From the NCBI GenBank assembly GCA_944325325.1, contig CALUZP010000110.1, positions 1 to 50,377 of the forward strand: a DNA stretch of 50,377 nucleotides, read 5' to 3'. Position numbers and translations under genes: made by a program. Each line of letters starts with the position of its first letter. Within the stretch, counting starts at the first letter, position 1. Below, piece after piece: positions 4,857 through 41,685 of the stretch. The notes beneath the pieces were generated by a model. That model did not search any database. It was not told the DNA's origin and saw only the letters and a list, made by a program, of their open reading frames with translations. This DNA is from an uncultured Desulfovibrionaceae bacterium (GTDB lineage Bacteria; Desulfobacterota; Desulfovibrionia; Desulfovibrionales; Desulfovibrionaceae).

Positions 4857-5008
4857 TTAGAGCATGTTCATCAGTTTGAAACGCGTTGCGTTTTAAACCA
4901 TACGCCCTGTCGCTTCGCGGAAAAACGCGGTTTTTCCGTTCATGTTTGGCCGGGCGGCGCTGTGCTGCCGCCTCGCGTTTTGCCTTGTTCAATGGCAAAG
5001 CGTTTTAG
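4857..5008 (+). repeat. Dispersed ~150-bp MITE-like element, copy A
   Basis: This copy starts with TTAGAGC (4857-4863) and ends with a decayed right end (GCGTTTTAG instead of CGCTCTAA). Inside are the family's hairpins: TTTGAAACGC/GCGTTTTAAA, a GGAAAAAC/GTTTTTCC stem, the GGCGGC/GCCGCC core, and TTTGCC/GGCAAA near the right end. It lies in an 800-bp gene-free gap between the ion transporter and rlpA. It is the most diverged copy by eye and encodes nothing plausible. Confidence 0.8.
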
Positions 5009-17167: not shown

Positions 17168-17316
17168 CAGAGTATTTTTGGGTTGAAACGCAAAGCGTTT
17201 CAACCCATACGGCCTGTCGTTTCGCGGGAAAAGCGCGGTTGTTCCGCTCAGGTATGGCCGGGCGGCGCTGTGCTGCCGCCTCGCGTGGTATCTTTTTCAA
17301 AGATAAAACGCTCTAG
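17168..17316 (+). repeat. Dispersed ~150-bp MITE-like element, copy B
   Basis: The left end is CAGAGT, where other copies have TAGAGC, and the right end is CGCTCTAG. The left hairpin is a perfect 12-bp stem (GGGTTGAAACGC / GCGTTTCAACCC) and the right-hand hairpin has TATC/GATA where others have TGCC/GGCA, so paired positions changed together. The CTA at 17313-17315 is the stop codon of the adjacent minus-strand thioesterase gene. The 17016-17167 stretch before it holds only GC-rich inverted repeats. Confidence 0.85.
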
Positions 17317-17723
17317 GCGATCAGTTCAAGCAGCCACACCGGCATGCGCACGGGCCTGCCTTCAAGATTGGTGCAGGCGTGCTCGGTAAAGCCCTCGGCG
17401 CGGACAACAGAACGTTCAGCGTCAGTCAGCTGGTAGACAAAGCGCATGGACGCCCTGCCGTGCTCAGCCAGGCCCACGCGGATCCAGATCAGTTCGTCAT
17501 AGCGCGAAGGGATCCGATACCGGCATCCGGCTTCGCGGACAGGCAGCATCAGCCCTTTTTCCTCGACCAGCGCGTAGCTCATGCCCAGCTGACGGATGTA
17601 GGCGCTGCGGCTGCGTTCGAAAAGATGCAGGTATTCGGCGTAATACAAATAGCCCATGGCGTCGGTTTCGCCATAGGAAACTCTGTGTTCCATCCATACG
17701 TCCTTGGCAGGAAATGCTTGCAT
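17313..17723 (-). CDS. YbgC-type acyl-CoA thioesterase (hot-dog fold)
   Basis: The 136-residue protein is a 4-hydroxybenzoyl-CoA thioesterase/YbgC-like hot-dog enzyme that hydrolyses acyl-CoA thioesters. The N-terminal VSYGETDAMGYLYYAEYLHLFERSRSAY carries the catalytic-type Asp (TDAMG) and the helix that follows. The ATG has GGAGG at 8 nt. Its stop codon TAG (17315-17313) lies inside the right tip of repeat copy B, so the element inserted at, or created, the 3' end of the gene. It is divergent from mltA. The physiological acyl-CoA substrate is not known. Confidence 0.85.
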   Translation of the reverse strand: MQAFPAKDVWMEHRVSYGETDAMGYLYYAEYLHLFERSRSAYIRQLGMSYALVEEKGLMLPVREAGCRYRIPSRYDELIWIRVGLAEHGRASMRFVYQLTDAERSVVRAEGFTEHACTNLEGRPVRMPVWLLELIA

Positions 17724-30554: not shown

Positions 30555-30704
30555 CTGGAGCGTTTTGCCATTGAAAAAGGCAAAACGCGAGGCGGCAGCA
30601 CAGCACCGCCCGGCCAGAAGTGAGCGGAAAAACCGCGGTGTTTGCGCGAAACGACAGGCCGTATGGCTGGAAACGCAACGCCTTTCAAACTGAAAAGGCT
30701 CTAA
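30555..30704 (-). repeat. Dispersed ~150-bp MITE-like element, copy C
   Basis: This copy lies in the opposite orientation to A, B and D. Its left tip reads TTAGAGC on the minus strand (30704-30698) and the other tip is decayed (CTGGAGC). The right-end hairpin is a perfect 10-bp stem, GCGTTTTGCC / GGCAAAACGC. By eye it differs from copy D at about six of 150 positions, so these two are recent relatives. It lies between the GNAT gene promoter and the 3' side of recR. Confidence 0.88.
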
Positions 30705-31829: not shown

Positions 31830-31979
31830 CTAGAGTCTTTTCAGTTTGAAAGGCGTTGCGTTTCCAGCCATACGGCCTGTCGTTTCGCGCAAACACCGCG
31901 GTTTTTCCGCTCACTTCTGGCCGGGCGGCGCTGTGCTGCCGCCTCGCGTTCTGCCTTTTTCAATGGCAAAACGCTCTAA
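31830..31979 (+). repeat. Dispersed ~150-bp MITE-like element, copy D
   Basis: The tips are CTAGAGT (31830-31836) and GCTCTAA (31973-31979). All the family's internal hairpins are present and it is almost identical to copy C in the opposite orientation. It sits in the ybaB-recR gap, which in most bacteria is only a few nucleotides long. Confidence 0.88.
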
Positions 31980-40007: not shown

Positions 40008-40030
40008 CGCCGCCAGAGGCTGACAGAATA

Positions 40031-40090
40031 CAAAAGCGGGGGGATCCGCCGTGCTGTTGCAGCATGGGGGATCCCCCCGCTTTTGCGCTG
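40031..40090 (+). terminator. Intrinsic terminator after prfA
   Basis: CAAAAGCGGGGGGATCC (40031-40047) pairs perfectly over 17 bp with 40069-40085. An inner GCTG/CAGC hairpin sits in the loop, and the stem ends in TTTTG. The 40086-40296 stretch to repeat E holds no recognisable feature. Confidence 0.85.
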
Positions 40091-40296
40091 TGCAGGGACC
40101 AGCCGTGTCCGGTGCGCCGGCCCATGCCCGGCATCGGCGCCGGACAGGCAGCAGCCTGTCTGGCCGTCTGGCGCGCTCATGCTGTGCTGTGGCATGGGGT
40201 AAGTCCTGCGCAGCGTCCGGGCCGTCAGAACGGCAGGCGTTTGAGGCAGAAAGCGGGACGCACCTTACCTTGGCCTTGGGCCCGGCTGGGGCTGTG

Positions 40297-40444
40297 TTAG
40301 AGCGTTTGCCCTTGAAAAAGGCGGAATGAGAGGCGGCAGCACAGCGCCGCCCGGCCCAAAGTGGGCGGAACAACCGCGTTTTTCTCGCGAAACGACAGGC
40401 GTATGGTTTGAAACGCAACGCGTTTCAAACTGAAAGGGCTCTAA
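40297..40444 (-). repeat. Dispersed ~150-bp MITE-like element, copy E (best-preserved ends)
   Basis: The tips are a perfect TTAGAGC (40297-40303) / GCTCTAA (40438-40444) inverted pair. The tip homology extends imperfectly inward to a shared TTGAAA about 17-22 bases in. The left hairpin is a perfect 11-bp stem, GTTTGAAACGC / GCGTTTCAAAC. The TAG in the tip (40443-40441 on the minus strand) is the stop codon of the adjacent peptidase gene. Confidence 0.9.
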
Positions 40445-41517
40445 AGGATCTCCATACCGTCCTCAGTGACGAGTGCCATATGCTCCCAGCGCACGCCGCC
40501 CCATTCCGGGTAGTACAGGCCCGGCTCCACAGTGATGATCATACCGGGTTCCAGAGGACGTGTGGTGCGGGCGTTGAGTGAAATGGGTTCATGGGTTTCC
40601 AGGCCTACGCCGTGCCCCAGACCGTGAGTAAAGGCCTTTTCGACGCCATGGGCGGCAAAGTGGTTCCATGCAGCAGCAAAGACCTCGCATGCCGGCACGC
40701 CAGGCCGCATGACATCGATGGCTTTCTGCTGGGCTTCCTGCACCAGCGCCAGGGTGCGTGAAAATTCGGGTGACGGCTTGTCTCCAACCCAGAATGTGCG
40801 GGTCTGGTCGGAGCAGTAGCCCTTGAGCCGGCAGCCCACGTCAACAAGCACGGGCCCTTCAGGTACGACGCGCACGTCCGGTGAAGGAATGGCGTGGGGC
40901 AGAGCGGCGTTGGGGCCATAGGCCACAATGCTTGCAAAGGCCAGTTCGGACGCACCGTGTTCCCGAAAATAGCGCTCTACGGCCCAGGCCAGCCCGGTTT
41001 CAGTCAGCCCCTTGTCCAGTTGTGAAGGGAGCCATTCCATCATGCGCTGATTGAGTGCGCAGGATTCACGCATGCGGGCGATTTCATCGGCATCCTTGAT
41101 TTCACGGAACCGGCTGGCCAGACCGTCGGCCGGGCGCAGGGCCAGGCTGCCGAGATTTTCAGAAAAGGTTTGCCAGAAGGCAAAGGACAGGGTTTTGGCT
41201 TCAAAGCCGAGTACGCCCTGAAATCTGGCGCTCAGATGCCTGCCCATTTCGGCTGCGGCGTCTGCGCCGTAAATGAAGATGTGCCCGGGATCCCAGAGCC
41301 GGCGGGCGGCGTCCAGGTATCGTGGATCGGTGTACAGCCAGTCGTCGCCGTCGGCAGACAGGACGAGGTGCCCCGCACTTTCATTGAACTGGGGATCGTG
41401 AAGTTCAAAGCCTGAAAGGTAATAGCGTGTGGCCGGGGAGCTGACAAGCAGCGCGGCAAGCCCGACCTCGCGCATGGTCCGGCGGACGTTGTCCCGGCGA
41501 AGTTCGTATGGCGTCAT
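40441..41517 (-). CDS. M24-family aminopeptidase P (Xaa-Pro aminopeptidase)
   Basis: The 358-residue cytoplasmic metallopeptidase removes an N-terminal residue preceding proline. Metal ligands of the pita-bread fold are visible in LVDVGCRLKGYCSDQTRTF (two Asp), HGLGHGVGLETHE (His), and ITVEPGLYYPEWGGVRWEHM (two Glu). An N-terminal creatinase-like domain covers residues 1-130. The ATG at 41517 has GAGGAAG upstream. The stop codon lies in the outer tip of repeat copy E, so the C-terminus may have been set by that element. The final residues (EDGMEIL) are typical for PepQ/PepP-like proteins. Confidence 0.9.
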   Translation of the reverse strand: MTPYELRRDNVRRTMREVGLAALLVSSPATRYYLSGFELHDPQFNESAGHLVLSADGDDWLYTDPRYLDAARRLWDPGHIFIYGADAAAEMGRHLSARFQGVLGFEAKTLSFAFWQTFSENLGSLALRPADGLASRFREIKDADEIARMRESCALNQRMMEWLPSQLDKGLTETGLAWAVERYFREHGASELAFASIVAYGPNAALPHAIPSPDVRVVPEGPVLVDVGCRLKGYCSDQTRTFWVGDKPSPEFSRTLALVQEAQQKAIDVMRPGVPACEVFAAAWNHFAAHGVEKAFTHGLGHGVGLETHEPISLNARTTRPLEPGMIITVEPGLYYPEWGGVRWEHMALVTEDGMEIL

Positions 41518-41685
41518 GACGACTTCCTCAACAGTGCATAGAAGGTTCAATGTACAAAATTCAGCATGGCGGGGTAGGCTTCCACGCGGGAGCCGCTCCG
41601 GCAGCGCGGCAGTCATGCGTCCGTGCCTGGATCGGGAAAGCAGAGTCCCGGCCCGGGGCGGCACACTCCCTGACGCCGCATGCCG

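Follow-up and report, generated by a model that had tools for sequence, protein, structure and literature searches.

A very abundant MITE-like repeat family in Desulfovibrio and its likely IS630-family partner

What is the non-coding repeat at positions 40297–40444 of this DNA, and what placed it there? The window (the whole 50 377-nucleotide stretch analysed here, from an uncultured Desulfovibrionaceae bacterium) holds five such sequences, which an initial annotation made from the sequence alone took either for a MITE mobilized by an unseen IS630/mariner-like transposase or for a structured intergenic repeat akin to REP/ERIC. We find it very probable that the repeat is a MITE, i.e. a non-autonomous transposon, moved in trans by an IS630-family transposase with a common tip.

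Copy limits include both bordering TA dinucleotides and were set with a profile built on 184 copies. The proposed five-copy family is real: all five window copies align end to end, scoring 142–157 bits, and each was located where it had been annotated, although the limits then given were about one base too wide. The full-length alignment also has the order of parts, the imperfect inverted tips and the TA ends as first described. Alignment and profile delimit copy 1 (4858–5007, + strand; 150 bp, TA to TA) and copy 3 (30556–30703, − strand; 148 bp), and the profile delimits copy 2 (17169–17315, + strand; 147 bp), whose left TA has eroded to CC and whose right border is the TAG stop of a thioesterase gene, and copy 4 (31831–31978, + strand; 148 bp). 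Copy 5, the locus in question (40298–40443, − strand; 146 bp), has the TAG stop of an M24 peptidase gene as its left border; its left tip (40422–40443, − strand) consists of TAGAGC and TTTGAAA, spaced as in the IS630 tip described below, and its right tip (40298–40322, − strand) is GCCTTTTTCAAGGGCAAACGCTCTA, with a subterminal hairpin. Copies 3 and 4 lie in opposite orientation 1.1 kb apart and are 98% identical; a short-range jump not long ago may explain this, or the two may form an inverted pair able to flip the intervening segment. A terminator-like match within these two copies is a hit to the consensus only.

The element measures ∼148 bp from TA to TA (∼144 bp inside the duplicated TA), and its consensus over 184 unique copies is TAGAGCATTTTCAGTTTGAAACGCTTTGCGTTTCAAACCATACGGCCTGTCGTTTCGCGGAAAAAACGCGGTTTTTCCGCTCACTTTGGGCCGGGCGGCGCTGTGCTGCCGCCTCGCGTTTTGCCTTTTTCAAAGGCAAAACGCTCTA, with terminal inverted repeats whose consensus tips are TAGAGCATTTTCAGTTTGAAA and TAGAGCGTTTTGCCTTTGAAA. 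In the same 184 copies the conserved block is bounded by Y-TA-GAGC and GCTC-TA-R, and outside it base composition is that of the background. As annotated, it encodes no plausible protein: translations of the consensus in all six frames are interrupted or unremarkable. Nor does it match a named RNA family: Rfam gave no family above its curated threshold in the window, and only chance-level matches around copy 4. Folded as RNA, the consensus has a predicted energy of −65.6 kcal/mol, and its subterminal hairpins show compensatory changes: pair 123–137 is G-C in 128 copies and A-T in 122, pair 122–138 is T-A in 134 and C-G in 105, pair 22–30 is C-G in 189 and T-A in 69, and pair 118–142 is G-C in 224 and A-T in 32, these figures being counts over related copies rather than independent events. 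The pairs are those of the folded consensus sequence, since alifold on 100 copies gave no structure. Both pairing states of these hairpins occur within several genomes, and no excess covariation was found in the GC-rich core hairpins. The double changes could stem from selection for the hairpin, or from a repair-like process that corrects imperfect palindromes.

The repeat family extends far beyond chance. The best other match in the window's own genome has E=2e-49, and this genome holds at least 40 copies among the matches listed, with 133–147 candidates; a reversed-pattern control gave 0 hits there against 87 with the true pattern. Stretches of this genome (2.18 Mb, 84% complete, a Desulfovibrio relative) contained 30 copies in 391 kb, one per 13 kb, which extrapolates by density to ∼165 copies. 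Duplication of one local locus was ruled out by these genome-wide copies. Their mean pairwise identity of 82% suggests that a burst in this genome would not have been very recent. Whole-genome counts were made with an 18-base core allowing up to 2 mismatches (controls, 0–4): the two richest genomes gave 580 and 454, five gave 177–226, the window's genome 87, one 45, and the remaining four 4, 4, 1 and 0, which is the control level. The sister species (genome G002) has ∼5 copies, the full-length ones confirmed by BLAST, and the richest genome has 209 in 847 kb, from which, as an estimate from large contigs, it would hold ∼815 (about 800), roughly 3.6% of its 3.3 Mb. The family's distribution across Desulfovibrionaceae is patchy, with the core present in 17 of 288 genomes; the 17 span three genera, and a few of them are single weak hits. 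Among the matches listed from named genomes the core occurs only in Desulfovibrio metagenome assemblies, including Candidatus D. intestinigallinarum, D. gallistercoris and D. intestinavium, species names that suggest a poultry-gut origin for several carriers. No copies were found in phage, plasmid or IMG/VR collections.

The annotation had proposed comparing empty and occupied sites, and this comparison shows that the element inserts at TA and duplicates it. In two clean pairs between genomes G059 and G061 (∼97% identity), CATC-[TA element TA]-GACTG corresponds to CATCTAGGCTG, and GCGAA-[TA element TA]-GTGC to GCGAATAGCGC; in both the TA, lying within CTAG or ATAG, is duplicated. Three more pairs at 90–96% identity (L291/L269, L270/L070 and L288_4291/L266) align without gaps at the junction once one TA is removed, the dinucleotide being mutated on one side. 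The window itself has a syntenic counterpart, about 86% identical, in a 110-kb contig of the sister species (G002:C25), and all five window sites fall in this syntenic DNA, which has no copy; at the sites of copies 1, 3 and 4 the intergenic DNA is too diverged for base-level junctions. Copy 5 sits at a synteny breakpoint (window 40011–40444), the left side matching C25 near 101.7 kb and the right side near 49.6 kb. Elsewhere, tandem copies with a single common TA occur at a period of 146, about a dozen direct and one inverted (among others L072 6590–6882, L152 7095–7386, L153 1386–1679 and L254 11179–11472).

A full-length IS with the same tips, the other search that had been suggested, was found in G059 and G061, the two genomes with the most copies. 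Its transposase gene is a 326-codon open frame in G061 (contig C4), and a second copy in G059 (contig C286) is split at eight consecutive A. Against the NCBIfam IS630 model, whose cut-off is 100, the transposase reaches 193 bits, and against PF13358 it reaches 116 bits. The IS is ∼990 bp long, bounded by TA-GAGCAATTCAACTTTGAAATGT and ACATTTCAAAGTTGAAACGCTC-TA; on these two contigs its tips are TAGAGCAATTCAACTTTGAAATGT and TAGAGCGTTTCAACTTTGAAATGTT, with the pattern TAGAGCGTTTTGCC...TTTGAAA. Among 308 element right ends, 67 are identical to the IS end over 21 bases and most have at most 5 mismatches, whereas none of 3728 TA sites in a contig without copies comes closer than 7. In another genus, related transposases ∼55% identical to this one are flanked on both sides by almost the same tip. 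Further IS fragments lie at contig ends in G059, several adjoining elements, as expected where an IS in many copies interrupts assembly, and a third genome (G064) has the IS only as a contig-end fragment. The transposase was not found in carriers other than these three, and no DDE_3 or matching IS630 transposase gene was found in the window's own assembly, which is 84% complete and of a kind from which repeats such as IS copies often drop out. The window copies form part of a sub-type with 4–5 of 21 right-tip positions unlike the known IS tip, and their mobilizer may be a variant, unassembled or lost. MITE interiors commonly derive from an IS by deletion, though this is not required. Here only the tips match, and no match to the element interior was found in the IS open frame, so simple deletion from this IS did not give rise to the element.

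Several observations concern the transposase genes themselves. The A-run at the split has 8 A in L304 (G102/G059:C286) and 7 in L303 (G162/G061:C4), and many relatives are split near the same place (residues 105–118), possibly by programmed frameshifting rather than decay. A second IS630-type gene of 281 codons (L208, G061:C140; L209, G059:C84) has an element copy ∼500 bp downstream in both genomes; it was set aside as the source, no matching inverted ends having been found around the gene. In genome G005 (L210, contig C289, 646–837) an 83-bp stretch 86% like the element interior directly follows ∼100 bp of a different IS630 transposase gene, a fragment that recurs at G005:C1. This fragment too was rejected as the source, since tracing it through 288 genomes led to no complete element whose tips match.

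The M24 peptidase gene (40441–41664, − strand) ends at copy 5 with ATCCTTTAG, where the sister-species orthologue reads ATCCTTTAA with a TAA stop; the thioesterase gene (17313–17723, − strand) ends at copy 2 with ATCGCCTAG, and its orthologue reads ATCGGATAA, with a TAA stop at the same place. Since the element starts with TA-GAGC, a TAA or TAG stop that receives it ends up as TAG. Over 278 copies, a long ORF reaches a border in 139 cases, and 85 of these are in the TAG frame; for control YTAR sites on a contig without copies the corresponding figure is 31 of 89. ORFs were taken as at least 200 open codons and are uncurated, making the size of the bias approximate. The bias probably reflects selection.

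Duplication of TA at empty sites, together with an IS630 gene whose tips match, upholds the suggested MITE with an IS630/mariner-like transposase. We think it improbable that some other TA-inserting element moved the MITE and that the IS630 tip is alike by chance. The window's genome does lack the IS in its assembly, and right-tip sub-types vary between genomes; coincidence, however, would have to produce 67 copies matching the IS end at 21 of 21 positions, a concentration of copies in the two genomes with the IS, and nearly the same tip on IS relatives in other genera. A structured intergenic repeat of REP/BIME/ERIC type, kept for RNA processing, termination or chromosome structure and only secondarily mobile, is not needed given the MITE evidence and appears very improbable. 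It would account for the strong predicted fold, for the paired changes in the subterminal hairpins and for the many copies at gene 3′ ends, but copy number ranges from 0 to more than 580 among related species, orthologous sites are empty, the borders are transposon-like with tips that match an IS630, the GC-rich core lacks excess covariation, and TA in stop codons explains the gene-end position. Membership in the REP/BIME class with a RAYT, in which REP palindromes are tied to a Y1 tyrosine transposase, is likewise superfluous given the TA duplication and the IS630 link. We give next to no credence to an artefact of assembly or binning (contaminating contigs, collapsed repeats): every carrier examined is a fragmented metagenome assembly, yet the copies lie inside contigs amid conserved genes, syntenic with the sister species, a context that makes an artefact very unlikely, and they recur in independent assemblies from different projects.

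For the MITE and IS630 reading, a mechanism can be outlined. The IS630-family transposase would recognize the common tip TAGAGC[A/G][A/T]TT(N4)TTTGAAA, cut and paste the element in trans, and insert it at TA, preferably Y-TA-R, with duplication of the TA. Hits in TAA or TAG stops would be tolerated because the G that comes first after the TA regenerates TAG, and this rebuilding, together with removal of gene-breaking insertions, would leave many copies exactly at gene ends. From the sequence comparisons, either this transposase or a relative lost from, or unassembled in, the window's genome probably moved the copies there, and the family has presumably been active. Against the reading, tandem copies are nearly all direct, whereas random insertion at a border TA is expected to give both orientations equally. 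The failure to find the transposase gene in the window's own assembly and several other carriers, the deviating right tip of the window copies, the interior without a match in the IS and the 82% mean identity also count against it. It is conceivable, if rather unlikely, that the subterminal hairpins are needed for spreading (e.g. as extruded or single-stranded ends recognized in replication), with tip changes compensated in the inner arm, and that the direct tandems with one TA come from a circular or replicative route and not from ordinary cut-and-paste.

The closest described case is RUP, the repeat unit of pneumococcus, with 107 bp, 110 copies, IS630-Spn1-like tips, a TA target and inferred mobilization in trans (PMC3049150, PMC2229807). 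Compared by description, both elements are non-coding, ∼100–150 bp long and present in about 100 or more copies, with tips resembling those of an IS630 from the same species, a TA target and a presumed mobilization in trans. The Desulfovibrio element differs in its unrelated host, its length (148 bp against 107 bp), its GC-rich core (AT-rich in RUP), its load of at least 454 and at least 580 copies in two genomes against 110, its TAG-rebuilding borders and the paired changes in its subterminal hairpins. Correia elements, or NEMIS, of Neisseria are MITEs too: short, bounded by TA, with inverted ends and many copies per genome (PMC2229807); they have a different host and are set apart here by description, not by sequence. 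ERIC/IRU and CIR repeats are short, with TA termini and strong folds, but have no reported source transposase (PMC2229807), unlike the Desulfovibrio element with its empty sites and matching IS630; in that review a matching source IS is reported only for RUP (PMC2229807). No account of a MITE from Desulfovibrio turned up in a literature search. What is new is a very abundant family of the known RUP/IS630-Spn1 kind, together with an IS that is probably its autonomous partner.

Metagenome assemblies of Desulfovibrio probably break up at this repeat. MITE and autonomous partner form a natural bacterial pair, and the load is unusually high: the copies run to hundreds and make up perhaps 3–4% of the genome, and close relatives carry almost none. 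This combination of a high load and near-empty relatives makes burst dynamics, the tolerance of insertions through stop-codon reuse, and the matching of tip to transposase directly testable.
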